DNA of 64,000 bases from Sulfuricella sp. (lineage in GTDB: Bacteria; Pseudomonadota; Gammaproteobacteria; Burkholderiales; Sulfuricellaceae). The translations under genes and the position numbers were made by a program. Location of the stretch: contig JAQTNE010000003.1 in assembly GCA_028713975.1 (NCBI GenBank), forward strand, positions 124,001 to 188,000, given 5' to 3'. The notes beneath the pieces were generated by a model. That model was given only the letters and a program-made list of their open reading frames with translations, was not told the DNA's origin and ran no database searches. This document shows positions 30,612 through 62,699 of this stretch, in pieces; position 1 is the first letter of the stretch, and each line of letters begins with the position of its first letter.

Positions 30612-31238
30612 ATGTCTCCTGATCCATTAACCGATTCAGCAAGTAAAAATAATCAATTTATGACAACTGACGACGCGATTCACCGCAACATTGCTGAACA
30701 CATTCAGACCATCGAATTAGTTCGTGGATCTTTAATTGGCGCGACCCAAAGGATTGGTCACCTTGTATCTCAGTCTCTTTCCAGTGGCGGTACCCTGTTT
30801 TGGTGCGGTAATGGAGGCAGCGCTGCCGACAGCCAGCACCTGGCTGCGGAGTTGGTCGGGCGGTTTAAAAAAAATCGGCGTCCGTTGCGGTCAGTCGCGC
30901 TGACTACGGACACCTCAGTGCTTACCTGCGTAGCCAACGACTACAGCTACGAAGATATTTTTGCGCGTCAACTGGAGGCTCTAGGTCGGTCGGGAGATGT
31001 ACTATTGGCAATTTCCACCTCGGGCAATAGCGAGAATGTGATACGTGCCATCAAGACAGCAAAGAGCATGGGTATTACAACGATCGCCTGGCTTGGTAAA
31101 GATGGCGGCTCCTGTAAAGACTTGGCTGATCATGCCTTGGTTATCCCTTCTGATTCCACTGCCAGAATTCAGGAGGCCCACATCCTTATCGGCCATATCC
31201 TCTGTGAATTAGTCGAGCAGGAGTTAGGCCTTGCCTAA
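30612..31238 (+). CDS. SIS-domain protein (GmhA-like phosphoheptose isomerase)
   Basis: FWCGNGGSAADSQHLAAELVGRF, LLAISTSGNSENVIRA, EAHILIGHILCELVE. Confidence 0.9.
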   Translation: MSPDPLTDSASKNNQFMTTDDAIHRNIAEHIQTIELVRGSLIGATQRIGHLVSQSLSSGGTLFWCGNGGSAADSQHLAAELVGRFKKNRRPLRSVALTTDTSVLTCVANDYSYEDIFARQLEALGRSGDVLLAISTSGNSENVIRAIKTAKSMGITTIAWLGKDGGSCKDLADHALVIPSDSTARIQEAHILIGHILCELVEQELGLA

Positions 31239-31788
31239 ATCCTTCCCAACCTTGGCGGCCATTCATACTGTCGTGTTCGATTTCGACGGTGTATTTACCG
31301 ACAACAAGGTCTGGGTCGATCAGGACGGACGCGAAAGCGTGCGCTGTGATCGTGGAGATGGATTGGCTTTTGATCTCATTCGCACTTTTCAGCGTCGAGG
31401 CCGGCTCACGGCGGAATTTTTTATCCTATCCAAGGAAGCTAACCCGGTGGTGCTGGCGCGAGCCAAAAAGCTCAAGCTGGGTTGCCACCATGGCGTTGGC
31501 GACAAATTGGGCTTTATAGTTGAATATCTTGCCGCCCGTTTGCCTGGCGATGCGGATCCGTTTGCCGGGATGGTGTATCTAGGCAATGACCTCAACGACT
31601 TGCCACTAATGCGCCGCGCCGGTTATGCTGTTGCACCTGCGGATGCTCACCCATTGGTTTGCGATATTGCTCATTTGATAATGCCACAACGGGGCGGCGA
31701 GGGATTTGTCCGCGCATTCATCGAGCGTTTGCTTGGAATAGATCATTTAACTAAGGAAGAAATCGATGAGCTTGTATCTGATCGCTGA
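31231..31788 (+). CDS. KdsC-like HAD phosphatase
   Basis: TVVFDFDGVFTDNKVWVDQDGRESVRCDRGDGLA, GNDLNDLPLMRRAGYAVAPADAHP; no cap insertion. Confidence 0.88.
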   Translation: MPKSFPTLAAIHTVVFDFDGVFTDNKVWVDQDGRESVRCDRGDGLAFDLIRTFQRRGRLTAEFFILSKEANPVVLARAKKLKLGCHHGVGDKLGFIVEYLAARLPGDADPFAGMVYLGNDLNDLPLMRRAGYAVAPADAHPLVCDIAHLIMPQRGGEGFVRAFIERLLGIDHLTKEEIDELVSDR

Positions 31789-32605
31789 AATTGGTATTAA
31801 TCATAATGGCAGTCTCGACATTGCCAAACAGCTTATTGACGCGGCTGCGGGGGCGGGTTTTGATGCGGTAAAGTTCCAGAAACGCACCATCGAGAAAGTA
31901 TACACGAAAGAATTACTGGATAGCCCACGCGAAAGCCCATGGGGAACCACCCAGCGCGACCAGAAAATGGGGCTGGAATTCGGTCGTGAGCAGTATCAGG
32001 AGATTGACCGCTACTGCAAGGGAAAGGACATTGCCTGGTCTGCCTCGGCGTGGGATGTGGATGCCCAACATTTTGTCCGTGATTTTAATGTTTCTTTTAA
32101 TAAAGTCGCCTCAGCCATGCTTGGCCATAAGCCACTACTGCGCGAGATTGCATCCGAAGGCAAAAAGGCCTTTATTTCGACCGGTATGGCGTCCCTGGAC
32201 GAGATTGATGAAGTGGTGAATCTATTCCAGCAGGCCAACTGCCCGATTGAACTAATGCATACCAACAGCACCTACCCGATGCGGGAAGAGGATGCCAATT
32301 TGCGCTGTATTCCCATGCTGAAAGCGCGTTATGGTTGTGACGTGGGCTACTCCGGCCATGAAAGTTCGTTGATCAAGGTGTGCGTTACTGCCGTTGCTCT
32401 GGGCGCCACTTCGCTGGAGCGTCACATCACTTTGGATAGAGCTATGTACGGCTCCGACCAAGCTGCATCGATTGAGACACACGCCCTGCATAATTTCGTC
32501 GAAAGTGTGCGTATGGTTCCTAAATTGCTGGGAACGGGTGAAAAGGCGATTGCCGATGTAGAACTGGCTGTGCGCAAGAAATTGCGGGTTGAGGTGGCTG
32601 AGTAA
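31766..32605 (+). CDS. NeuB-family ulosonic acid synthase lacking the C-terminal SAF domain
   Basis: LIAEIGINHNGSLDIAKQLIDAAAGAGFDAVKFQKR, STGMASLDEI, GYSGHESS; ends at 279 aa. Confidence 0.88.
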   Translation: MSLYLIAEIGINHNGSLDIAKQLIDAAAGAGFDAVKFQKRTIEKVYTKELLDSPRESPWGTTQRDQKMGLEFGREQYQEIDRYCKGKDIAWSASAWDVDAQHFVRDFNVSFNKVASAMLGHKPLLREIASEGKKAFISTGMASLDEIDEVVNLFQQANCPIELMHTNSTYPMREEDANLRCIPMLKARYGCDVGYSGHESSLIKVCVTAVALGATSLERHITLDRAMYGSDQAASIETHALHNFVESVRMVPKLLGTGEKAIADVELAVRKKLRVEVAE

Positions 32606-32619
32606 ATAGACGGGAAAGT

Positions 32620-33366
32620 ATGAATAAGCGCGTTGTTCTCATCATTCAGGCTCGCATGGGCTCCACCCGGCTACCAGGCAAGTCCATGATGGACTTGGCT
32701 GGGGCGCCCTTGGTCGGACGTATTTTGGAGCGAGTAAAGCGCTGCCAGCGCATTGATGAGATAGTTTTGGCCATCCCCGATATATCCAAAGACAGCGTTC
32801 TTGGTGATCTGGGTAGGAGTTATGGCGTAACGGTATTCGCGGGCCCTGAAAATGATCTGATCGAGCGTTACTACCAGGCGGCCTTGGCGAGCGATGCCGA
32901 AGTGGTGGGGCGCCTGCCGGCAGACAATGCCACTCCCGAGCCGGCAGAAATTGACCGGATCGTCGATCACCACCTATCGCTGGGGCGCCGGGGGTTTTCC
33001 TCGAATCTATCGGTTATTAATGATTCCGGCTACCCGGACGGGATTGGTGCGGAGATGTTCGATTTTTCTCTGTTGGCTGAAGCACGGGAACGCCATGCGG
33101 ACCCTCGTCAACGTGAACACGTGCATCTGAATTTTTTCGATTACGGCACGCAGCAAGCGGTGGATGAAAACTGGTGCCCTATCAGCACGGTGCCATGTCC
33201 GGCGGAATTCCGCCGGCCCGATCTTGTGCTGGATGTGAATACTCAAGAGCAATATGAGTTCATGCGACAGCTCTACGAAGACCTTTATCCCCGGAATCCG
33301 AATTTCCATATCACCGATATTATTCGCTGGTATGACGAGGTGTATCGCAACCCAAAAACCGTTTAA
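32620..33366 (+). CDS. SpsF/NeuA-like cytidylyltransferase
   Basis: VLIIQARMGSTRLPGKSMMDLAGAPLVGRILERVKR, RLPADNATPEP. Confidence 0.85.
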   Translation: MNKRVVLIIQARMGSTRLPGKSMMDLAGAPLVGRILERVKRCQRIDEIVLAIPDISKDSVLGDLGRSYGVTVFAGPENDLIERYYQAALASDAEVVGRLPADNATPEPAEIDRIVDHHLSLGRRGFSSNLSVINDSGYPDGIGAEMFDFSLLAEARERHADPRQREHVHLNFFDYGTQQAVDENWCPISTVPCPAEFRRPDLVLDVNTQEQYEFMRQLYEDLYPRNPNFHITDIIRWYDEVYRNPKTV

Positions 33367-46950: not shown

Positions 46951-48693
46951 ATGTTTCTTGTCACGACTGCGGATCGGCGGTACTGGAAAGCCGGTGAAAA
47001 AATCCTGTTCCTGGGCGAGTGGTGCAAGCTGTTTTGTGACAGAGAGTACTGGGAACATCTGCCGCATGACACGCTGTCTTTCTATTGGAATGATCGGCAA
47101 CGGCTATATCGTGATTACCAGTATGTAAGTGTATTGTACGAACGTTATCTGGAATTGCTTGCTCAGCAGTTAAATCGCGCGCATGCCACCCATTTCTCGT
47201 TGCGTTACTGGCGCATTCTGATTGGCCCGTGGCTCCGGTTTTTCATGGAAACGCTGTTTGACAGATATGTTGCGATCAAGGAAGCACGGGCAACAAACCA
47301 GATAACCGGCACTTGGGTGCCTGAAGATATTGCAGGGAATTGGACACCCAATGATTTCCCCAATTTTCTCAAGTGGTTCGTCGCTGACGAATATAACCAG
47401 TATTTGTACGGAAAGGTTATAAGAAGGCTTGGCGGAATTCCTTATGAGATTGTCAGTAGTGAAGGTCGCGCCAAGGCAGTGAGTCATGGCGGGACGTTCT
47501 CATCCCGAGTGAAATGGCTGCTTGGTTGTTGTTCGAGAGCAGTTCCAGACAAGTTTAACAGGAAGGTGTTTGTATCGAGCTATTTGAGTTTGAGGGATCA
47601 GATCAAGCTGCAATTGTCTCTGGGGCAACTCCCCTATTTCCCCCCCGGGATTATTCTGGATGACCTCGCCTATGATGCGAAGCGCCGATCTGCGCTGTTT
47701 TTTAACGAGGGCGATGACGAATTTGAGGTGTTACTGGCCGCGCTAATTCCTGAGCAGTTGCCCAAGCTTTATCTGGAAGGGTATGCGGATATGCACAAGC
47801 GAGCGATGAACGCTTATCCGAAGAAGCCGGAATTGATTTTCACGGCCAATGCATTTTCCGAAAATGAAGCATTCAAATTTTGGACGGCTTGCCAAGCCGA
47901 GGCGGGAACGAAATTTGTTATTTCCCAGCATGGCGGGCATTACGGCACCGGTTTGTGGTCAAGCACTGAAAATCACGAAATAAAAATTGCCGATACATAT
48001 TTTTCATGGGGCTGGCGCTCAGAATCGAATCTGAATGTTGAACCCCACCCGGTCGGCAAGCTTGCCCCGCTCGGAAAACGAAAAAAGGCTCATAATGACG
48101 GGCCGATTCTTTGGGTAGCAAATACCTGGCCAAGGTATCCCTACATTTCCATGAGTATTCCGGTTGCCTCGCAAATGCTGACGTATCTTGATGAGCAGAA
48201 GCGGTTTATGCATGGGCTTTCGCAAAGTGCTGGTGATGCGTTGTTACTCAGACTTCATCCAATGGATTATGGCTGGCATGCAAAAGCCAGATGGGCGGAG
48301 TGGTTCCCCCGCCTGAAAGTCTATCAGGGGCCAGAGCGCTTATCTCAACAATTACTTGGATGCAGGTTGTTTGTGGGCACGAATAACGCGACAACCTTTC
48401 TGGAAACATTGGCGGCCAATATTCCTACAATAATATTCTGGAACCCGGATCATTGGGAATTGCGCGATTCTGCGTTGCCCTATTTCAATGAACTGCGCCG
48501 TGCCGGCATCCTCCATGACACCCCGGAATCGGCTGCCGATAAAGTCAATGAGGTTTATCGGAATCCGGATTTATGGTGGCGGCAAACAGAGCCCCAACGC
48601 GCAAGGGAAGTGTTCTGTGCGGAATTTGCGCAAACCAGCGATGAATGGATGAAAGACTGGAGGCGCGGTTTTGCTAAAATTGTTGCGCCTTAA
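46951..48693 (+). CDS. LIC12162-family putative surface-glycan transferase
   Basis: FLVTTADRRYWKAGEKILFLGEWC N-terminus, ISQHGGHYGTG, GTNNATTFLETLAANIPTIIFW. Confidence 0.8.
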   Translation: MFLVTTADRRYWKAGEKILFLGEWCKLFCDREYWEHLPHDTLSFYWNDRQRLYRDYQYVSVLYERYLELLAQQLNRAHATHFSLRYWRILIGPWLRFFMETLFDRYVAIKEARATNQITGTWVPEDIAGNWTPNDFPNFLKWFVADEYNQYLYGKVIRRLGGIPYEIVSSEGRAKAVSHGGTFSSRVKWLLGCCSRAVPDKFNRKVFVSSYLSLRDQIKLQLSLGQLPYFPPGIILDDLAYDAKRRSALFFNEGDDEFEVLLAALIPEQLPKLYLEGYADMHKRAMNAYPKKPELIFTANAFSENEAFKFWTACQAEAGTKFVISQHGGHYGTGLWSSTENHEIKIADTYFSWGWRSESNLNVEPHPVGKLAPLGKRKKAHNDGPILWVANTWPRYPYISMSIPVASQMLTYLDEQKRFMHGLSQSAGDALLLRLHPMDYGWHAKARWAEWFPRLKVYQGPERLSQQLLGCRLFVGTNNATTFLETLAANIPTIIFWNPDHWELRDSALPYFNELRRAGILHDTPESAADKVNEVYRNPDLWWRQTEPQRAREVFCAEFAQTSDEWMKDWRRGFAKIVAP

Positions 48694-50447: not shown

Positions 50448-52328
50448 ATGAAAGCTTGTATCTGCACAACGCCGATCCGGCCAGTGCCAACAGAATATCC
50501 GCCTTTTGGCAGTCTTGCGGTTATCCAGTCACTGAGAAAAATAGGCGAGGATCCGCAGTTTTTTAACATCGATTATTTTCGCTACAAGCACGATCAGATT
50601 GTTGAATATTTTACTAAAAATCAATTCGATGTGGTGGGGATCAGCGCAGTTGTATCAACTGCCTATGCCTATACGAAATATCTTTCCGATCTTATCAAGT
50701 CGGTTTCCCCTAAGACCGTTGTCATTGTAGGCGGAAATCTTGCTGCGAGCGCTGAAATTCTTCTGCGAAAGTGCGAGGTGGATTTCTGCGTAGTGGGTGA
50801 TGGCGAGCTGGTAATCCAGAACCTGTTCAAGGTGCTTTACCAGAAACCGCTGAATTATGACCTGTTGCGTGAAACCAAGGGAATTTGTTTCCTGGATGAG
50901 CGGGATCAGTTTTGCTTTACCGGTTTTGGGCCCCGCCCATCAGCGGAAGAAATAGAATGGCCGGATTATCGAATTCTGGAGGCGGATGGTTCTTTGCCAT
51001 ATTTTATCTCGGATAAAATCGACGAGCGCTTTACCGGTTATGATGCCCCGGTCGAACCCGGTGTAACGCAGGCAACAATTGTCATGACAAAAGGGTGTGT
51101 TGCACGCTGCACGTTCTGCCATCGATGGGAAAAAGGTTTTCGTGCCCGCCCTGTCAATCAGGTAATGGATCATATCAAACACCTCCATGATCGTTACAAT
51201 ACAAAATTCATAGATGTTTCCGATGAGAATTTCGGGGCTGACCGTAAGCTGGCATGGGAGATCGCATCCCGGTTGGGCGAAATGAATGTTGTTTGGCGGG
51301 TGGCCGGGGTTCGGACACGAACTGTGACCAAGGAGGCGTTGCTTCACTGGAAAGCCAATGGCTGTGTATCGGTCTATTTTGGCATCGAGTCTGGAAGCGA
51401 AAAAATCCTGAAAGTCATGGAGAAAAATGCGACGCTGGAAGAAAACATCAATGCGCTGAAATGGACTACTGAAGCTGGGCTGGGCACTGTAATTCAGCTT
51501 GTTTTAGGTATGCCAGGGGAAGACGACCAAACGATTCGGGAAACGGCTGATTTTCTCAAAAACGTTTCTCAATATGTTTTATGGTGGGGAGACAAGGCGC
51601 CTAGCGAATTGATCAGTATCAATTATGCCCAAGCCTTGCCCGGCACCCCTTTTTACGAGTTCGCACGCGAGCATGGGTATATCGGACAGGGTGTTGATGA
51701 AGAAGAGGATTACCTGATAAAGATCAGTGACACCGATGCCTACAAGGAAGATCACTTCCTTAACTGTACGGGTCTGCCCTTGCTCAAGGTGCTGATGTGG
51801 CGGCCTTTTATCCTGGCCGAAGTGGATGCCTACCATCTAACCTCCCAACTGCCGAACCCCCATCTTTCACTTGGATACTTGATCCAGTATTACCTTAAGC
51901 TACTCCGGGTAAGGGTGGAGAAAGGCTGGGGAGGGAACTCTTGGGTGGCTTCCCTGATGAAGGTGGTATTGCCCAAGGCTCGGCCAGATGACCGCTTAAT
52001 GAAAAAAGAAAATGATACAAGCGATTATTATAGTGATTCGGGGTATTTTAATATTCACAAGGGATTCAAATTTGCCCCGCTATTGTTGAACCCAATAACA
52101 AGGAAATTGTTTTACCCGATACTTGCCGTTGCCATGGCTATTAAATCGGGATCATTCTGGCAGGCTGCGAAGCTGCTTGCCGAGCACATCGTTTGGAGCA
52201 TGGGTTATCGTCCAGGAAAATCGGTTGATATCCCGGACAAGTCGCTTCGCAAAATTGTGACGATCAAACCAGTCAAGCCGAATGCGGAGCATAGAGATCA
52301 AATGTTGCCTTTGCGTTCGGGGCGCTAA
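50448..52328 (+). CDS. B12-binding-domain radical SAM protein
   Basis: N-terminal VVGISAVVSTAYAYTKYLSDLIK...VVIVGGNLAAS, CVARCTFCHRW cluster motif, FGIESGSEKILKVM. Confidence 0.88.
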   Translation: MKACICTTPIRPVPTEYPPFGSLAVIQSLRKIGEDPQFFNIDYFRYKHDQIVEYFTKNQFDVVGISAVVSTAYAYTKYLSDLIKSVSPKTVVIVGGNLAASAEILLRKCEVDFCVVGDGELVIQNLFKVLYQKPLNYDLLRETKGICFLDERDQFCFTGFGPRPSAEEIEWPDYRILEADGSLPYFISDKIDERFTGYDAPVEPGVTQATIVMTKGCVARCTFCHRWEKGFRARPVNQVMDHIKHLHDRYNTKFIDVSDENFGADRKLAWEIASRLGEMNVVWRVAGVRTRTVTKEALLHWKANGCVSVYFGIESGSEKILKVMEKNATLEENINALKWTTEAGLGTVIQLVLGMPGEDDQTIRETADFLKNVSQYVLWWGDKAPSELISINYAQALPGTPFYEFAREHGYIGQGVDEEEDYLIKISDTDAYKEDHFLNCTGLPLLKVLMWRPFILAEVDAYHLTSQLPNPHLSLGYLIQYYLKLLRVRVEKGWGGNSWVASLMKVVLPKARPDDRLMKKENDTSDYYSDSGYFNIHKGFKFAPLLLNPITRKLFYPILAVAMAIKSGSFWQAAKLLAEHIVWSMGYRPGKSVDIPDKSLRKIVTIKPVKPNAEHRDQMLPLRSGR

Positions 52329-53344: not shown

Positions 53345-53468
53345 GATCATTGATGCTTCTCCGATTTTATAAAGTAATGCAAACCATGGGCCGTATTATT
53401 TGTCAGTGACAAATGGTTTTTGAAAAAAGCGGAACATTAATGCGAAGCCATGTGAGATGGGAAAGGAA

Positions 53469-54241
53469 ATGAAAAAATTTCGCTAAAAGAAAAGATTCGT
53501 ACAGGGGTTCCGACAATCGGATCCTGGATTACTTTGGGCCATGCGGGGATTGCCGAAATCATGGCTAATGCCGGTTTTGACTGGTTGGTAGTCGATCTTG
53601 AACACAGCGTTATGGCCATTGATACGGCCGGCGATCTGATTCGAGTCATCGACCTGTGCGGGGTTTCGCCATTGGTGCGCTTGACCTCCAACCATCCCGA
53701 TCAAATCAAGCGGGTAATGGATGCCGGCGCGCATGGCGTAGTGGTGCCGATGGTTAATTGCGCTGCCGATGCGGAGCGGGCCGTGGCGGCGGTGCATTAT
53801 GCTCCGGAGGGTTCCCGAGGGGTGGGGCTGGCTCGTGCGCAGGGATATGGCATCCGCTTCCGGGAATATTTTGCCTGGCAGAAGGAACATGCTGTCGTTA
53901 TCGTGCAGATAGAGCATCGGGACGCGCTCGACAATCTCGAAGAAATATTGACGGTTCCGGGAGTGGATGCCTTCATCATCGGCCCTTATGATCTTTCATG
54001 CTCAATGGGGATTCCAGGCCAGTTCGACCACCCTGACTTTGCCGCGGCCATGGAACGAATCCGCACTGCGGGCGAAAAGTTGGCTTGCCCCGCCGGACTG
54101 CATATTGTCGAACCTGATAATGCGCGCCTCGCACAGTCGTTGCGCGAGGGCTACCGGTTTATCGCCTACAGCGTAGATATTCGCTTGCTGGATGTTGGCG
54201 TTCGGCAAGGACTTCAATGTTTTAAAGAGATAGTTCAATGA
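53469..54241 (+). CDS. HpcH/HpaI aldolase family protein (N-terminus frame-ambiguous)
   Basis: LKEKIRTGVPTIGSWITLGHAGIAEIMANAGFDWLVVDLEHSVM, VVPMVNCAADAERAVAAVHYAPEGSRG; conserved N-terminus lies upstream of the track ORF. Confidence 0.85.
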
Positions 54242-55008
54242 AAGCAATAGGAATTATCCCGGCGCGCATGGGTGCGTCACGTTTTCCCGGCAAACCAATG
54301 GCAAAGCTGCTTGGAATGCCAATGGTCGGCCACTGCTATCATCGTACCCGGCTGGCGCCGGGTTTGGATGCGGCTTATGTGGCTACCTGCGACGAACCTA
54401 TTGCCGAATATGTGCGAGGTATCGGTGGCACGGCAATAATGACATCGTTAAGCCACAATCGAGCCACCACGCGTACGGCGGAGGCTCTGGAGCTTATTGA
54501 GCGCGAATCCGGTGAGCGGGTCGATGTTGTGGTGATGGTTCAGGGGGACGAACCGCTGATATCACCCGAAATAATCGGGGAGACATTGCGTCATTTTGCC
54601 GATCCCTCTGTGGATATCGTTAATGTCATGTCCCGATTGCGCACGCTGGAAGCGTTTGTGGACAAGAATAACGTCAAGGTGGTGGTTAATCCGAACAATG
54701 ATGCGATTTATTTCTCCCGCGAGCCGATTCCTTCGCCGTGGAAGGGCTGGGAACATTTGCCCCGCTACATGCAGACAGGCATCATCGCATTTCGCCGCGA
54801 TGTTTTGCTGCGCTTTAACGCTATGGCAGAGACGCCTCTGGAGCAGTACGAATCCGTGGACATGAACCGGGTACTCGAAACTGGGGGGCATATCCGCATG
54901 GTGCTCACTGAGGCTCTTACCATCGGAGTTGATACCCCTCAGGAACTCAAGGATGCGGAGGAATTGCTGAAAAATGATCCAACTTTGGCTCAGTACTTGG
55001 CTCAATGA
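54238..55008 (+). CDS. KdsB-like CMP-ulosonate cytidylyltransferase
   Basis: IIPARMGASRFPGKPMAKLLGMPMVGH, VMVQGDEPLISPEII, YMQTGIIAFRRDVL. Confidence 0.85.
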   Translation: MKAIGIIPARMGASRFPGKPMAKLLGMPMVGHCYHRTRLAPGLDAAYVATCDEPIAEYVRGIGGTAIMTSLSHNRATTRTAEALELIERESGERVDVVVMVQGDEPLISPEIIGETLRHFADPSVDIVNVMSRLRTLEAFVDKNNVKVVVNPNNDAIYFSREPIPSPWKGWEHLPRYMQTGIIAFRRDVLLRFNAMAETPLEQYESVDMNRVLETGGHIRMVLTEALTIGVDTPQELKDAEELLKNDPTLAQYLAQ

Positions 55009-55077
55009 GAGGGCGTGAAATCTGGTCGGAGGTGCGGCCGAATCGATACGCAACGAGAATTGTAAATAGGGGGGGGT

Positions 55078-56040
55078 ATGGGACAGATATTGAGGGCTGA
55101 TGAAGTTAAACCAGATTTTGAAGGTTTAAAAAATAAATGGGGAGAAATGCTCAGAAAGTATTATTTGGACGTGAAGACGCTTAATCCTAAGTTTACCTTG
55201 GATGTTCCCTGTCCTTATTGTGGTTCAACAGAATCAGAGCAGTCATTTGATCTCAATGGATTTTGTCATAAGACGTGCTCGGAGTGTCAAACCTTGTATG
55301 TTAGTCCTCGCTTATCCAATGTTTGTATCGAGGAGCTTTATAGTGATGATTATTACAGTGAAATGTACACTCGCTCTATGCTTCCCGCCTTTGAAAAACG
55401 TAAGCAATTGATTGGCCGACGCAAATTTTCCCAGACCGTTTCCCATTGGGGGGGGCAAGGGCAAGGAAGAGTCCTTGATGTTGGGGCCGGAATCGGAGAA
55501 GTCATAGATGTGTTTCGAGAAGAAGGCTGGAGCACCCACGCTATTGAGATGAACAAGGTTGCAATAGAGTGGTTGCGGTCGCGCAGTTATGAAGAAGTTT
55601 TTCATGGAACTCTGGGAGATTACACGTCTCCCCACAAGTACGACATCATAATGGCATGGGGAGTTGTCGAGCATGTTGTGGATCCGGCAGCTTTCCTAAA
55701 AAAGGTTTATGCGCTTTTGACCCCGGGAGGTATGTTTGTTTCTGAAGTTCCTCATGGTCAATGCCTTTTAGTTGATATGGTTCAGAAAACAGGTATGGAT
55801 CCCAAACGTATCCTTATCGGAGAGCAACACATCGTTCTTTATTCAACCCAGGCTTACACCGGATTACATGAAAGAAATGGGTTTGAAAGAATCCATGTGC
55901 AAACAAATGGTCTTGATTGCGACACGATATTTAAAGAAAGCAATGTGAATATTCCTGACGATATTTTAGCCCCGATGCAAGAGTGTATCGACGAACAAAT
56001 GTATGGCGATCTTCTGCGCGGATTCTGGCGTCGACGCTAG
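55078..56040 (+). CDS. Class I SAM methyltransferase with N-terminal zinc-ribbon-like Cys motifs
   Basis: CPYCGSTESEQSFDLNGFCHKTCSECQTLYVSPR, RVLDVGAGIGEVIDVF. Confidence 0.87.
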   Translation: MGQILRADEVKPDFEGLKNKWGEMLRKYYLDVKTLNPKFTLDVPCPYCGSTESEQSFDLNGFCHKTCSECQTLYVSPRLSNVCIEELYSDDYYSEMYTRSMLPAFEKRKQLIGRRKFSQTVSHWGGQGQGRVLDVGAGIGEVIDVFREEGWSTHAIEMNKVAIEWLRSRSYEEVFHGTLGDYTSPHKYDIIMAWGVVEHVVDPAAFLKKVYALLTPGGMFVSEVPHGQCLLVDMVQKTGMDPKRILIGEQHIVLYSTQAYTGLHERNGFERIHVQTNGLDCDTIFKESNVNIPDDILAPMQECIDEQMYGDLLRGFWRRR

Positions 56041-56045
56041 ACATA

Positions 56046-56162
56046 ATGAATGAATTAAGATTTAGCCCTGGCCCAGTATTTGACCCGATGAAAGAACGGC
56101 GGATGAGTTTTCATGTTTGGGTAGTTGGCCGAAAACCCATCGATAATGAGGTTGTCCCATGA
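56046..56162 (+). CDS. Possible small ORF (38 aa) overlapping the next start
   Basis: MNELRFSPGPVFDPMKERRMSFHVWVVGRKPIDNEVVP*; ATGA overlap with the gene at 56159. Confidence 0.3.
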   Translation: MNELRFSPGPVFDPMKERRMSFHVWVVGRKPIDNEVVP

Positions 56163-57208
56163 CGGAACTGAAAGTGGGTATTGCCGGGTTCGGTGTGGTT
56201 GGAAAGCGCCGCAAGGACTGTGTCGATCGCCACCCGCATATGCGGGTCGTGGCCGTATGTGATCAATTGTTCGAAGGGGAGGGCGTGTTCCCGGATGGCG
56301 TACGTTATTATCCGGATTACCGTCCCTTGCTGGCGGAAGATTTGGATATCCTTATCGTATGTCTAACCAACGAGGTTGCGCCCGAAGTTAGCATCGCCGG
56401 CCTGGAGCGTGGGTTACATGTGTTCTGTGAGAAGCCGCCGGGCCGCAATGTTGAAGACATTGCGCGGGTTATCGCTCATGAGCGTCAGCATCCTGCCCTT
56501 AAGCTCATGTATGGGTTCAACCATCGTTACCATGACTCCGTTCAGGACGCCTTGCAGATTATCCGATCTGGCCAGCTTGGCCGCATTATTAATATGCGGG
56601 GCGTTTACGGAAAGTCGAAGTTGATCACCTTCAATCAGCCCGACTGGCGAACCCAGCGGGAGATTGCGGGTGGGGGTGTGCTGCTCGATCAGGGTATCCA
56701 TATGGTAGATCTTATGCGTCTTTTCGCCGGGGATTTTACCGAGATTTACAGCTTCATCTCCAACAGCCATTGGGGATACGATGTCGAGGACAATGCCTAC
56801 GCCTTGATGCGCACGAAAGACGGCATCGTGGGTATGCTCAATTCGTCGGCTACCCAGTGGCGGCACCGGTTCCATCTAGACATCAATCTCGATCGGGGCA
56901 GCATCATCCTTGGTGGCATTCTTTCCGGCTCCAAGAGTTATGGCGCTGAAACAATGACCGTTGTTACCGCCGATCATGATCGCGACAATGGCGATCCCAA
57001 GGAACAAATCACCCGCTATAACCGGGATCCTTCCTGGGATGAAGAGATATCCTGTTTCGCCGACTGTGTCTTGAATGACAAGCCGATTCAAAGTGGTTCA
57101 TCCGAGGATGCTTTCCGGACAATGGAGCTTGTTTATAAAATTTATTACGCCGATCCTGTTTGGCGAAACACCTATCAAATTCCCAATCCAGACGATTGCC
57201 AGATATGA
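56159..57208 (+). CDS. Gfo/Idh/MocA-family oxidoreductase
   Basis: VGIAGFGVVGKRRKDCVDRHPHMRVVAVCDQ, GLHVFCEKPPGRNVEDI, GGGVLLDQGIHMVDLMR. Confidence 0.92.
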   Translation: MTELKVGIAGFGVVGKRRKDCVDRHPHMRVVAVCDQLFEGEGVFPDGVRYYPDYRPLLAEDLDILIVCLTNEVAPEVSIAGLERGLHVFCEKPPGRNVEDIARVIAHERQHPALKLMYGFNHRYHDSVQDALQIIRSGQLGRIINMRGVYGKSKLITFNQPDWRTQREIAGGGVLLDQGIHMVDLMRLFAGDFTEIYSFISNSHWGYDVEDNAYALMRTKDGIVGMLNSSATQWRHRFHLDINLDRGSIILGGILSGSKSYGAETMTVVTADHDRDNGDPKEQITRYNRDPSWDEEISCFADCVLNDKPIQSGSSEDAFRTMELVYKIYYADPVWRNTYQIPNPDDCQI

Positions 57209-57810
57209 ATAACATCGACCGTTTTTGCACTCATGACCCCGTGGTTTTCGCGGGCGCTTACATCAATTACCTCTCCGAAGTAATGAAGGGTATCGATGTC
57301 AGCCAGATCGGCTGTTTCATCAAAACTTTGCTTGATGCGCGCGAGCGGGACGCCACCATTTTTTTTATGGGTAACGGGGGGAGTGCCGCCACCGCAAGCC
57401 ACTTTGCCAATGATTTGGCTATCGGCACACGTTCTTACGAAAAACCTTTTCGTGCGGTTAGCCTGACCGATAACCAGGCAATTATTACCGCTATTGGCAA
57501 CGATTTTGGCTTCGAAGAGATTTTCATGCGACAACTGAGCATTCTCGGTCGTTCCGGCGATATATTGGTCGGCATTTCCGCCTCTGGAAATTCCGGTAAC
57601 CTCCTTAGTGCCTTTGAATTTGCCCGTTCCGTTGGCATCAAAACCGTGGCGATAACCGCTTTCGATGGCGGCAAGATGAAAGATGTTGCCGACGAAGGTA
57701 TTCATGTGCCGACCGCGCCACGGGAATATGGCCCTGCCGAGGATGCGCATATGATGATAGACCATCTTGTGGGCGCTTATCTGACTCATCTGGTTAAGGC
57801 CGAGGCCTGA
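57205..57810 (+). CDS. SIS-domain protein (GmhA-like), second copy
   Basis: FMGNGGSAATASHFANDLAIGTR, LVGISASGNSGNLLSAF, EDAHMMIDHLVGAYL. Confidence 0.9.
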   Translation: MNNIDRFCTHDPVVFAGAYINYLSEVMKGIDVSQIGCFIKTLLDARERDATIFFMGNGGSAATASHFANDLAIGTRSYEKPFRAVSLTDNQAIITAIGNDFGFEEIFMRQLSILGRSGDILVGISASGNSGNLLSAFEFARSVGIKTVAITAFDGGKMKDVADEGIHVPTAPREYGPAEDAHMMIDHLVGAYLTHLVKAEA

Positions 57811-57814
57811 TTTT

Positions 57815-58543
57815 ATGGCGGAAGCGAAAATTAAAAGGTTCACCGACAGGAAAGTGGTGGTTACGGGGGCCACACGGGGAATAGGTCTTGCGATCGCCCA
57901 GGCATTTCATGCCGAAGGGGCCTATGTGATCGGAACCGGCACCGGCGAAAGTGGTACAGGTTTCTGCGACGAGCATTTTCGTGCCGATTTCACCGATCTG
58001 GACCAGATTCACATCTGTGCCGATTTCATCCGCCAGGCTGAACCGGATGTGCTGGTGAACAACGCCGGCATCAACAAGGTGGGGCCGTTCGTTGAGATTG
58101 ACCCGGAAGATTTCCGGCGTATTCAGCAGGTTAATGTTTTTGCACCATTCTCCCTGTGTCAGGCGGTGATTCCCAGCATGAAACGCAAAGGTTGGGGGCG
58201 CATCGTTAATCTGTCTTCGATCTGGGGCAAGATCAGCAAGGAATACCGTGCTCCCTATTCGGCCAGCAAGTTTGCCTTGGACGGCATGACTCTGGCGCTC
58301 GCTGCCGAGCATGCGGCAGATGGGATTCTTGCCAACTGCGTGGCACCCGGTTTTATCGATACCGAACTCACTCGCCAGGTACTCGGCGACGAACAGATTC
58401 AGCGAATTGTCGCCACTGTGCCGGCGCGCCGCATGGGCAGCATCGAGGAGATCGCCCACTTTGTGGTATGGCTTGGCGGTCCGGAGAACACTTATCTTAC
58501 CGGCCAGAACATTGCTATTGACGGAGGTTTCAGCCGTGTCTGA
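57815..58543 (+). CDS. SDR-family oxidoreductase
   Basis: VVVTGATRGIGLAIAQAF, VNNAGINKVGPF, YSASKFALDGMTLALAAEHA. Confidence 0.92.
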   Translation: MAEAKIKRFTDRKVVVTGATRGIGLAIAQAFHAEGAYVIGTGTGESGTGFCDEHFRADFTDLDQIHICADFIRQAEPDVLVNNAGINKVGPFVEIDPEDFRRIQQVNVFAPFSLCQAVIPSMKRKGWGRIVNLSSIWGKISKEYRAPYSASKFALDGMTLALAAEHAADGILANCVAPGFIDTELTRQVLGDEQIQRIVATVPARRMGSIEEIAHFVVWLGGPENTYLTGQNIAIDGGFSRV

Positions 58544-59606
58544 AAAGCTCAGCATCCAATCTCACTCGGGGCCTTATTCCGTGGCCTTCGACGATCTGTT
58601 GTTGACCGAACCGGCGCGCCTCCTGGATGGGCAGCCGCACTTTCTGGTTGACGCCAATGTGGCGCGTCTCTACGCCGATCATTTGCGTCCGATCCTCGAT
58701 AACCATCGCACGCTGGTCATTGAGGCCACAGAGGAAAACAAATCTATTGACCGCATCATTCCGGTTATTGAGCGGTTAGTGGAAAACAAGATCCGGCGGG
58801 ATCACACTTTGATCGCCATCGGCGGCGGTATTATCCAGGACATTACCTGTTTTATAGCCAGCACCCTGCTTCGCGGGGTGCCCTGGAAGTTTGTACCCAC
58901 AACGCTGCTTGCCCAGGCAGATTCATGCATCGGATCAAAGAGTTCTGTCAACCTTGGTGCCACCAAAAATATCCTTGGCACTTTTAATCCGCCGAGGGAA
59001 ATTTTTATTTGCACCGAATTCATCAATACTTTGGAGAGCAAGGATATTTTTTCAGGTATTGGTGAAATCCTCAAAGTGCATGCTATCGACGGCATGGCGG
59101 CATTCGATCGTTTGTCAGCCGATTACGACTCGCTTTTCACCAGCCGCGCCACTCTTCTTCGGTACATCCGGGAAGCCTTGCTTATCAAGCAGCGCTTTAT
59201 CGAAGAGGATGAGTTCGACAAGGGTATCCGCAATATATTCAATTATGGCCATAGTTTTGGCCACGCCATCGAATCGGCAACCGAGTTTGGTGTGCCGCAT
59301 GGCATCGCGGTTGCTATCGGTATGGATATGGCCAACCGTATTGCGGTTCTACGCGGTTTGCTGCCGGAGAGCCATTACAACCGGATGCATCCCGTAATAC
59401 GCAAGAACTATGCGGCCTTCGCTTCCATCAACATCCCCGTGGAAGCTATGCTTGATGCCCTGATGAAGGACAAGAAAAATACCGCTACCGAGCTGGTGCT
59501 CATCTTCCCGGTGGGCGATGAAGCAAACATCGAACGGGTGCGGGTGGTTCCTGATGAGGGTTTCCGAAGTCAGTGCAAACAATTCCTTGCGGAGATGAAG
59601 GCATGA
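58536..59606 (+). CDS. AroB-like sugar phosphate cyclase (3-dehydroquinate synthase superfamily)
   Basis: IAIGGGIIQDITCFIASTLLRGVPWKFVPTTLLAQADSCIGSKSSVN, GIGEILKVHAID, NYGHSFGHAIE, PHGIAVAIGM; GTG start at 58536 after GGAGG. Confidence 0.88.
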   Translation: MSEKLSIQSHSGPYSVAFDDLLLTEPARLLDGQPHFLVDANVARLYADHLRPILDNHRTLVIEATEENKSIDRIIPVIERLVENKIRRDHTLIAIGGGIIQDITCFIASTLLRGVPWKFVPTTLLAQADSCIGSKSSVNLGATKNILGTFNPPREIFICTEFINTLESKDIFSGIGEILKVHAIDGMAAFDRLSADYDSLFTSRATLLRYIREALLIKQRFIEEDEFDKGIRNIFNYGHSFGHAIESATEFGVPHGIAVAIGMDMANRIAVLRGLLPESHYNRMHPVIRKNYAAFASINIPVEAMLDALMKDKKNTATELVLIFPVGDEANIERVRVVPDEGFRSQCKQFLAEMKA

Positions 59607-60535
59607 ATCTTACCGACAAAGTCGCGGTCTGCTCGCGCTCCTTTTCCCGCAATACAGTTTTACGCGCCGAGCTGATCGCTCGCTACGGGCACGTAACTTT
59701 CAATGAAACCGGGCGCCAGTTGGAAGGGGATGATCTGGTCGAATTCTTGCGTGGCCACGATAAGGCGATTACTGCACTGGAAAGGATTGATGACTATATC
59801 CTGGCGAACCTGCCGGAACTGAAAGTGATTGGGAAGTATGGCGTTGGCCTCGACATGATTGATCTCGATGCAATGCGCCGTCACGGCAAGCACCTTGGCT
59901 GGACCGGAGGCGTCAACCGACGATCTGCGGCTGAACTGGCTCTGTCTTTCGCTATCGCCATGCTGAGACATGTTCCAGCCGCCCATCGTGAGGTTCTGGC
60001 CGGGACATGGCGCCAGCATATGGGTGGTTTGCTGTCTGGACGAACGGTAGGCATCATCGGTTGTGGCCATATCGGCAAGGATCTCGTCCGTTTGCTCCAA
60101 CCCTTTGATTGCCCGATTTTGGTGAATGACATTCGTCACTATGGCGATTTCTATGCCGAATTCGGCATCGAATCCCTTGACCTGGAAGAACTGCTCACGC
60201 GAGCTGATGTTGTCACCTTGCATGTGCCCCTCGATGACAGCACCCGTGGAATTCTTACTGCCGAGCGGTTGGCGCTAATGAAACCCACTGCGATTCTCAT
60301 CAATGCAGCGCGTGGCGGGCTGGTGGATGAACTGGCGCTCAAACAGGCGCTTATCGAGAAGCGCCTGGCCGCTGCCGCCTTTGATGTCTTTGCTGAAGAA
60401 CCTCCGCAGGATGTTGAATTGCTGCAATTGCCGAATTTTCTCGTGACCCCGCACATCGGCGGTAGCGCTGAAGAAGCCATCCTTGCCATGGGGAGATCGG
60501 CAATCGCGGGCCTGGATGAGCATGCCTTGCCCTGA
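59603..60535 (+). CDS. D-isomer-specific 2-hydroxyacid dehydrogenase (phosphoglycerate dehydrogenase-like)
   Basis: GRTVGIIGCGHIGKDLVRLL, LINAARGGLVDELALKQAL, VTPHIGGSAEEA. Confidence 0.92.
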   Translation: MNLTDKVAVCSRSFSRNTVLRAELIARYGHVTFNETGRQLEGDDLVEFLRGHDKAITALERIDDYILANLPELKVIGKYGVGLDMIDLDAMRRHGKHLGWTGGVNRRSAAELALSFAIAMLRHVPAAHREVLAGTWRQHMGGLLSGRTVGIIGCGHIGKDLVRLLQPFDCPILVNDIRHYGDFYAEFGIESLDLEELLTRADVVTLHVPLDDSTRGILTAERLALMKPTAILINAARGGLVDELALKQALIEKRLAAAAFDVFAEEPPQDVELLQLPNFLVTPHIGGSAEEAILAMGRSAIAGLDEHALP

Positions 60536-60848: not shown

Positions 60849-62699
60849 TTGCCCTCTTTCATTCTTGTTACCAAAAAACAATCGGCACCAGAGTTTCGCG
60901 GAAAATGGGTCTATTTTGGCGAAAATTACCTGGATATGTGCCGCTGGGAAAAGCAGCTCGGCTCTGCAGAGAGGCTTTCCTATGCGCAATGGCTCCCACA
61001 GACTTTCAAGGAACTGAGCGGGACGTTTATTCAATGGGTTTCTGATCTGGGCAAGCCCTATGGAAGTTCGCTCGATTGGTGGATGACACGACTTTCGGGC
61101 CGGAACCCCTTGCAGACGCCGATTTTCTTGCACATCTGTTATATGGATATCCTGTACAAGCGGCTGCTTGGCGATCTTCAAAACGAGTGCCTGATCGTGT
61201 GCGAGGATTGGTTTTTATTGCGGATGATCGAAACGAACTTGAAGAATGCGGGTTATGCAACCCGGCGCAAGCCGTTCTGGCAGTTTAGCTTTGTATCCGC
61301 TGAACTGGCGTGTGTCCTGGAGGCTTGTGCCCGTTGGGGCTATGCCTTGGGTTACCAGCTCTTCGCTTTGTTGGTGGTGAAGCTCCTTTTCCGGTTCCGG
61401 GCGGAAGAGGCTTCAGGTAATAATGCAAAAAAAACAGTGATTATCCATACCTGTGTGGATGAGGCATGTTTTGGCGCGGATGGGAAATTTCATGACCGTT
61501 ATTTTGCAGGGCTTTCTGAATGGCTGGAGGAGGGGGGCTATCAGGTCTGGACTATTCCTTGGCTCTTCAATCTGAAGCGCCCGCTTTTTTCGGCTTATTT
61601 ATGGCTTCGGCGCTCCCCTGACAAATTCCTTATTCCAGAAAAATATCTAAGGTTATCCGATTATGTGATGCCGGTTTGGCAAATACTTAAGGGTGGGTGG
61701 GTACTGCGCGGCGATCACAATGTTTTGGATTATTGTGTCACGCCGCTCATTAAGCGCGAAAGGCGGGCCAATTTCTCTGCTGCCGGATGGATGCGCTTTT
61801 TGCTTTACATTCCCTTCCTTAAACGATGGACAAGAGAAGGGGGGCACTGCGACATATTGGTTGATATGTTTGAGAATATGCCTTGTGAGCGGACGTTGGT
61901 TCGAGCGATCAGGCAGTATTCATGTGAAGCACTAACGATCGGGTATCAGCATGCCACGATCATGGATGAGTTAATAGGCTACCGTGTAACTGCCGATGAA
62001 TGGGCCAGCCGGGTTTTCCCGGATCGTATCGTAACCAATGGCGTGGCCAATAGGGAGATTTTGGCCAATGAAGGATTTCCGAAAGGCGCCCTCATTGAAG
62101 GCCCTGCTTTTCGCTATAACTATCTGTTCAATCAAAATGGATCGGAATCAGGAGTAGCCAGACCGGCAGATAAAAAGAAAGTAATTTTGACTGTTTTGCT
62201 GCCAATGGATATTCCGGCGGCAGTGGAACTTTTGCTTGGAGTCGTCCGTATTGCCGACAAAGTGACTGCTGCTGGTCTGCGCGTCGAACTGAAGAATCAT
62301 CCAATGTCGCCTGAGGATAGGCTGATGCGGGCAGCGGGACTGTCACAGTTGCCATCAGGCTGGGATTGGACCAAGGAGGGCATGCGCGACCAACTGGATA
62401 AAACGGTCATCGCCATCGGCATGGGAACGGCTGCTTTGCTTGATGCCGCAGCGGCGGGCGTCCCCGTGATATGCTTGGGCCGCGAACTTGGCTTTTCCTA
62501 CAACCCACTGGAATGTTTGGGCAGTAAATATGCCAGTTGTCGTACGGTTGGTTCGGCGATGTTTCCACAGCGGTTTGCGGAAGTGGCGGGAGACGTGAGT
62601 GGGGACGAAGGGAGGCAATTAAAGCAATTGTCTTCCGATATTATCCTGGGTCTTGGTCGTCTCGACCATAAAAACTTTTTGTCATTTATACGGGAATGA
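60849..62699 (+). CDS. Putative surface-carbohydrate transferase (GT-B-like, possibly distant LIC12162 relative)
   Basis: VAIGMGTAALLDAAAAGVPVICLGRELGFSYNPL, VELKNHPMSPEDRLM; location in glycan island. Confidence 0.55.
   Translation: MPSFILVTKKQSAPEFRGKWVYFGENYLDMCRWEKQLGSAERLSYAQWLPQTFKELSGTFIQWVSDLGKPYGSSLDWWMTRLSGRNPLQTPIFLHICYMDILYKRLLGDLQNECLIVCEDWFLLRMIETNLKNAGYATRRKPFWQFSFVSAELACVLEACARWGYALGYQLFALLVVKLLFRFRAEEASGNNAKKTVIIHTCVDEACFGADGKFHDRYFAGLSEWLEEGGYQVWTIPWLFNLKRPLFSAYLWLRRSPDKFLIPEKYLRLSDYVMPVWQILKGGWVLRGDHNVLDYCVTPLIKRERRANFSAAGWMRFLLYIPFLKRWTREGGHCDILVDMFENMPCERTLVRAIRQYSCEALTIGYQHATIMDELIGYRVTADEWASRVFPDRIVTNGVANREILANEGFPKGALIEGPAFRYNYLFNQNGSESGVARPADKKKVILTVLLPMDIPAAVELLLGVVRIADKVTAAGLRVELKNHPMSPEDRLMRAAGLSQLPSGWDWTKEGMRDQLDKTVIAIGMGTAALLDAAAAGVPVICLGRELGFSYNPLECLGSKYASCRTVGSAMFPQRFAEVAGDVSGDEGRQLKQLSSDIILGLGRLDHKNFLSFIRE

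Follow-up and report, generated by a model that had tools for sequence, protein, structure and literature searches.

The subject of this study is a run of eight genes in a 64,000-nucleotide stretch of DNA (the window) from a Sulfuricella sp. of the Gammaproteobacteria (assembly GCA_028713975.1, contig JAQTNE010000003.1, positions 124,001 to 188,000). Our comparative analysis suggests, with a probability that we put at roughly three in four, that its first gene encodes a pyruvate aldolase (ALD) making an ulosonic acid, that the KdsB-like product of the second gene (KDSB) activates this acid with cytidine monophosphate (CMP) for a surface glycan, that a dehydrogenase resembling phosphoglycerate dehydrogenase (PGDH) belongs to the same core, and that two alternative sub-modules can accompany it. 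The core of ALD, CMP-transferase and PGDH is conserved, and the window adds a less common sub-module to this widespread core. An earlier reading of the window made from its letters alone (the sequence-only reading) had proposed that the aldolase supplies the acid for the CMP-transferase, and this central idea is well supported by genomic context, namely linkage, the lack of KdsA and a re-modelled KdsB. We found no description of this pathway in the open-licence literature, which is weak evidence of absence.

ALD was searched for in 85,462 species genomes and the best 80 relatives (52-74% identity) were kept; with loci from a scan of one phylum and one plasmid locus, these make up 87 ALD loci. 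The best 80 span Pseudomonadota, Gemmatimonadota, Thermodesulfobacteriota, Chloroflexota, Elusimicrobiota, Planctomycetota, Acidobacteriota, Bacillota, a Nealsonbacteria bin, a Hadarchaeum bin and others. Within 6 kb of ALD, 84 of the 87 loci have a CMP-transferase gene and 82 a PGDH gene, whereas neither is found at that distance in any of 20 controls, which are catabolic HpaI-type homologues taken as the next matches of the phylum scan. As 45 of the 87 loci belong to Nitrosomonadaceae or lie near them, the fairer figure for the CMP-transferase is that outside this group, 39/42 versus 0/20 (Fisher 2e-13). The three loci lacking the transferase within 6 kb are two whose contigs end near ALD (L093, L079) and one with a KdsB-type gene about 6.1 kb away (L149). 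In L101, L105, L130 and an Acuticoccus plasmid (L217), a NeuA/PseF-type gene stands in for KdsB, such that the activity rather than the KdsB gene is conserved, as would be expected if the product of ALD is the substrate of the transferase. The neighbourhood is conserved more than chance would allow, and the co-occurrence that the sequence-only reading had suggested looking for in other genomes extends across phyla. Its proviso that the aldolase could be catabolic and not conserved in this setting does not hold.

ALD has the PF03328 domain, the catalytic H and R and the metal-binding E and D that define the HpcH/HpaI family, with H43, R68, E146 and D172 kept in 88 of 88 ALD sequences. However, it reaches only 182 bits against the NCBIfam equivalog for HpaI, whose cut-off is 369, and is also far below those for GarL and RhmA. 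Among 399 genomes of the phylum, six matches besides that in the window's own genome have 45-63% identity to ALD, and the rest mostly 31-45%. In a maximum-likelihood tree, a single branch (98/85) splits the 20 controls from the ALD sequences, except for L080, a 37% match that falls among the controls. The window's ALD clusters (100/99) with those of L082-L086 and L088, loci which hold the window's sub-module wholly or in part (L084 being a short contig). Six residues, Q122, W134, H147, Y171, H209 and Y231, are found only in the ALD clade and are lacking in the controls; they lie beside the metal site. Thus, while ALD shares fold family and catalytic residues with the HpaI, GarL and YfaU-type class II pyruvate aldolases, by tree and residues it is a separate clade, and it has no catabolic neighbours in our sample.

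KDSB is above the cut-off (255 bits) of NF009905, a KdsB subfamily model that also takes in housekeeping KdsB, and this match therefore does not tell its substrate; its closest PDB match is 1gq9. We compared 79 scorable linked enzymes with 30 housekeeping KdsB sequences, using E. coli numbering. In the C-terminal domain, H181Q, E210D and Q211M are each present in 79/79 linked enzymes, while the three positions are unchanged in 30/30 housekeeping sequences, and Y185I is present in 77/79. These four positions are ones that we take to contact the sugar in E. coli KdsB structures. The C-terminal domain of KdsB is known to bind 3-deoxy-D-manno-octulosonic acid (Kdo) (PMC3149649). Judged by these uniform changes, the linked homologues are not plain Kdo enzymes and their sugar-side domain appears re-modelled, contrary to the plain Kdo specificity that the sequence-only reading had said would undo its proposal.

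None of the 87 loci has KdsA near ALD, and they thus do not have the makeup of a Kdo pathway. Two of them (L083, L155) have NeuB within 6 kb, each time beside its own PseF-type gene, and a NeuB pathway is not indicated either. As the sequence-only reading had stated, the window's module has neither synthase, the closest NeuB being at 31.8-32.5 kb with a CTP_transf_3 partner at 32.6 kb. This pair (31766-33363), in which the NeuB-type synthase scores below cut-off for TIGR03569 (235 bits), is a nonulosonic-acid-like set of its own, some 21 kb upstream of the module. The genome also has a housekeeping-type KdsB (contig 6) and, on the minus strand of the window at about 22.65-23.18 kb, WaaA. No KdsA above cut-off was found in this 89%-complete assembly, which, given WaaA and the housekeeping KdsB, is probably a matter of assembly incompleteness.

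The ammonia-oxidising family of the genome G102 (G102 and 60 more genomes) is one in which the lipid A markers are absent. It was taken as Nitrosomonadaceae on the basis of 74-90% ALD identity, a tree position by Nitrosomonadaceae sequences, and gene order shared with loci of named Nitrosomonas and Nitrosospira. A presence scan, for which ALD was the only module gene used as a query, found it in 60 of the 61 genomes and in 51/51 good assemblies. LpxC and WaaA were each found in 0/61, and KdsA above cut-off in none of G102 and six named-strain genomes. An earlier report on N. europaea noted that almost all Kdo2-lipid A genes are missing (PMC3087551), and our counts extend this, in that the whole family seems to have lost the lipid A pathway. 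Without LpxC and WaaA, the transferase in this family can hardly serve Kdo-lipid A; in G102, the single match to the KdsB subfamily is the ALD-linked one. The gene order KDSB-ALD-PGDH-epimerase-HAD (haloacid dehalogenase-type phosphatase) was read in G102, G472, G421 and G451, and the ALD neighbours in Nitrosomonadaceae (O-antigen ligase, methyltransferases, glycosyltransferases) mark a surface-glycan locus. We had also considered the ALD sugar as a substitute for Kdo on the lipid A of these bacteria, an idea dropped once the LpxC scan showed no lipid A pathway.

Beyond the core, the sequence-only reading had placed all eight genes in one pathway, and this part has to be revised. The Gfo/Idh/MocA dehydrogenase (GFO), the sugar isomerase (SIS) protein, the short-chain dehydrogenase/reductase (SDR) and the AroB-superfamily protein (AROB), here called sub-module II, are separable and optional. 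AROB is found in only 8/87 ALD loci: six of these also have GFO/SIS, and the other two, in genomes of Nitrosospira type, have it 8-10 kb away. It also occurs with GFO, SIS and SDR in loci that have no aldolase (L035, L037 and L038). All three encode a CMP-transferase, and PGDH is present in L035 and L037, L038 stopping at a contig edge. GFO homologues are present in 15/87 ALD loci as well as in these three. Other ALD loci (architecture I) have an epimerase and a HAD phosphatase in place of GFO/SIS; of the 45 loci in the Nitrosomonadaceae group, 38 have HAD near ALD, or 40 counting the two AroB-bearing ones. Outside that group, 19 loci have HAD only, 15 GFO/SIS only, none both and eight neither (n=42; Fisher 8e-6), a mutual exclusion which suggests that the two sets act at the same point in one pathway. 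Upstream of the module, the window encodes a B12-binding radical SAM (S-adenosylmethionine) protein (50448-52328), 52% identical to its counterpart in L035, a locus that also has KdsB-like, Gfo, SIS, SDR, AroB and PGDH genes. The module may include a C-methylation.

The individual enzymes of the run have familiar relatives. The closest PDB match of PGDH is the phosphoglycerate dehydrogenase 1wwk, and the catalytic R/E/H that it shares with phosphoglycerate dehydrogenases and glyoxylate/hydroxypyruvate reductases are kept in 81-82 of 84 sequences; it differs from them in its conserved link to ALD and the CMP-transferase. A gene of the glycerate-2-kinase family (MOFRL) stands directly before PGDH in two loci of uncultured gammaproteobacteria (L115, 14014-15336; L153, 13041-14363). 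AROB keeps the metal-site and phosphate-site motifs of dehydroquinate synthase (DHQS) in alignments to 3okf and others, but scores 262 against a cut-off of 305 for the DHQS equivalog TIGR01357. Among DHQS, EEVS, DOIS and related cyclases, it falls above the cut-off (400 bits) of TIGR04425, "AroB-related putative sugar phosphate phospholyase (cyclizing)", a family whose function is itself putative. The SIS protein reaches 128 bits for the phosphoheptose isomerase GmhA model TIGR00441 (cut-off 209), and a GmhA above cut-off is present at 30612-31238 of the window.

Table 1. Module genes and candidate transferases (window positions unless a locus is named)
Feature	Position	Strand	Basis and remarks
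ALD, HpcH/HpaI-type class II pyruvate aldolase, putative ulosonate-linked clade	53477..54241	+	PF03328, 3e-40
KDSB, putative KdsB-like CMP-ulosonate cytidylyltransferase, CTP_transf_3	54238..55008	+	PF02348, 2e-41; NF009905, 272 bits
Class I SAM methyltransferase, Cys-rich N-terminus	55078..56040	+	PF13489; homologues in 23/87 ALD loci
GFO, Gfo/Idh/MocA dehydrogenase, sub-module II	56159..57208	+	PF01408 + PF22725
GmhA-like SIS sugar-phosphate isomerase, sub-module II	57205..57810	+	PF13580; TIGR00441 below cut-off
SDR dehydrogenase, sub-module II	57815..58543	+	PF13561
AROB, AroB-superfamily putative sugar-phosphate cyclase, sub-module II	58536..59606	+	TIGR04425, 477 bits
PGDH, PGDH-like D-2-hydroxyacid dehydrogenase, conserved core	59603..60535	+	PF02826, 3e-55
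LIC12162-family candidate transferase	46951..48693	+	TIGR04331, 529 bits; in 6/87 ALD loci
TIGR04326-like (LIC13510) surface-carbohydrate protein, candidate transferase	60849..62699	+	76 bits, cut-off 250
c424, predicted GT-B protein, no Pfam family	L077, 7473-8756	divergent from KDSB	conserved IKPHTR motif

The families of the eight genes (53.47-60.54 kb) were confirmed by Pfam and NCBIfam profile searches, and the co-directional run with ATGA or short overlaps described by the sequence-only reading is correct: all genes are on the + strand, with ATGA joints between ALD and KDSB (54238), GFO and SIS (57205) and AROB and PGDH (59603), and an 8 bp overlap of SDR and AROB. The starts of AROB and PGDH are most likely at 58536 and 59603. 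Where ALD would be expected to begin (53465-53495), a standard start codon is lacking. The ATG at 53469 is shifted by one base from the ALD frame, being followed by an A6 tract and then TAA, and ALD homologues start at the position matching an in-frame ATT at 53477, the other in-frame candidate being TTG at 53534. The gene could start either at ATT 53477 or at ATG 53469 with one A missing from the tract, and the oddity could be due to a sequencing error, an unusual start or slippage.

Taken together, we infer the following route, in which the direction of the reaction, the substrates, the roles of PGDH and of the sub-modules, and the product are deduced from gene families and their neighbours. 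ALD would condense an aldose, free or phosphorylated, with pyruvate or possibly hydroxypyruvate, giving a 2-keto (ulosonic) acid with no synthase dependent on phosphoenolpyruvate (PEP). A phosphatase or sub-module may prepare the acceptor or the product, KDSB would convert the acid to a CMP-ulosonate, and a neighbouring glycosyltransferase would put that sugar into a surface glycan. PGDH would carry out a core step on a 2-hydroxy or 2-keto acid, either supplying the three-carbon donor or adjusting the acid. To this core would be added either epimerase and HAD phosphatase, as in most genomes, or Gfo/Idh and SIS with, at times, SDR and the AroB-like cyclase, as in the window. The Kdo pathway (KdsD, KdsA, KdsC, KdsB) likewise has a SIS isomerase, a three-carbon extension to a 2-keto acid, a HAD phosphatase (as in architecture I) and a CMP-transferase of the KdsB family. 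The module differs from it in using an aldolase where that pathway has the PEP-dependent KdsA, in its additional PGDH and second oxidoreductase, in the changed sugar-side residues of its KdsB, and in having carriers without WaaA and LpxC. With the nonulosonic acid pathways (NeuB/NeuA, LegI, PseI), it has in common a CMP-activated 2-keto acid for surface glycans and, in some ALD loci, a NeuA-type transferase; unlike them, it has no NeuB partner, and the nearby NeuB has a CMP-transferase gene of its own.

Several observations weigh against this proposal. The evidence on function is wholly genomic, and since aldol reactions are reversible, a degradative role is also compatible with the sequences. 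Of the 87 loci, 45 come from one family or near it, and many others from metagenome bins. Moreover, the AroB loci without ALD have CMP-transferases, and there the 2-keto acid must come from another source. A YdiJ/GlcD-like 2-hydroxyacid dehydrogenase linked to flavin adenine dinucleotide, encoded in L035 (329-3226) and L038 (6708-9563), is a possible one.

Of the alternatives, the one we take most seriously, while still holding it to be the lesser prospect, is that two pathways lie side by side: ALD, KDSB and PGDH for a CMP-ulosonate, and Gfo, SIS, SDR and AroB, with a PGDH-type step of their own, for a cyclitol-like sugar. That sub-module II exists without ALD and ALD without sub-module II is in line with this, but the AroB loci carry a CMP-transferase too, and the strict exclusion of Gfo/SIS and HAD argues for a shared step. 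A rather doubtful but relevant option is that PGDH makes hydroxypyruvate, its substrate being glycerate or, once HAD has acted, 3-phosphoglycerate, and that ALD uses the hydroxypyruvate to give a 3-hydroxy rather than a 3-deoxy ulosonic acid. PGDH accompanies ALD as constantly as the CMP-transferase does, it adjoins the glycerate kinase-type gene in L115 and L153, and one ALD relative in the PDB is annotated as a hydroxyketoacid aldolase; on the other hand, the window's version has no HAD, and the equilibrium of hydroxypyruvate reductase favours reduction. The "3-deoxy" nature that the sequence-only reading had given the acid is no more than one option, hydroxypyruvate and pyruvate being equally possible donors.

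The other two alternatives appear improbable. KDSB could be a second enzyme activating Kdo, or its 8-amino derivative Kdo8N, with ALD an unrelated catabolic neighbour, as the NCBIfam KdsB names and the presence of WaaA and a housekeeping KdsB in the window's genome might suggest. This is hard to reconcile with the C-terminal-domain changes in 79/79 linked enzymes, the ALD pairing across phyla, and the occurrence of the module in a family where LpxC and WaaA are both lacking, and in WaaA-less bins of Peptococcaceae, Dehalococcoidia, Nealsonbacteria and Hadarchaeum. Least probable of all, ALD might make a 3-deoxy-2-keto acid phosphate like 3-deoxy-D-arabino-heptulosonate 7-phosphate (DAHP) for AROB, in a pyruvate-based, shikimate-like carbocycle, while KDSB serves something else. 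A pyruvate aldolase is chemically able to make DAHP, and AROB keeps the DHQS site motifs. However, AROB is rare among ALD loci and distant in the two Nitrosomonadaceae ones, ALD-less AROB loci exist, and the constant partner of ALD is the CMP-transferase; we set the idea aside on this co-occurrence.

As for the transfer of the sugar, candidate transferases lie near the core in the window and elsewhere (Table 1). The (K/R)xHP motif is present in 5/7 homologues of the TIGR04326-like protein. The LIC12162-family protein has a predicted fold of glycosyltransferase type B (GT-B; predicted local distance difference test score 84.5) and, in a comparison aimed at the GT99, GT107 and GT140 folds of Kdo and sialic acid transferases, gave generic GT-B structure matches; only the R of (K/R)xHP is kept. 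The gene for c424, likewise GT-B by prediction, is divergent from KDSB in most Nitrosomonadaceae loci. The best PDB matches of these last two are of TagF/BshA and UDP-GlcNAc 2-epimerase/GT4 type and do not assign a donor, and as CMP-ulosonate transferases the two are no more than candidates. A CMP motif has been described (PMC12887879), and it is only partly kept in both proteins.

A bolder picture, which we hold as speculative and rather unlikely in full, is a widely exchanged CMP-ulosonate route with a dedicated aldolase for the PEP-dependent synthase and, through hydroxypyruvate, a product that is possibly not 3-deoxy; in ammonia oxidisers that lack lipid A, this sugar would be a central component of the glycan or glycolipid that replaces lipopolysaccharide at the surface. 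If the proposed role of ALD and KDSB is true, PEP-dependent condensation would not be the sole way for a cell to reach ulosonic acids activated with CMP, and in many genomes the sugar named by the KdsB annotation would be wrong. It would also offer a direct handle on the makeup of the outer surface of Nitrosomonadaceae, since the lipid A genes are missing there and the aldolase is nearly universal.

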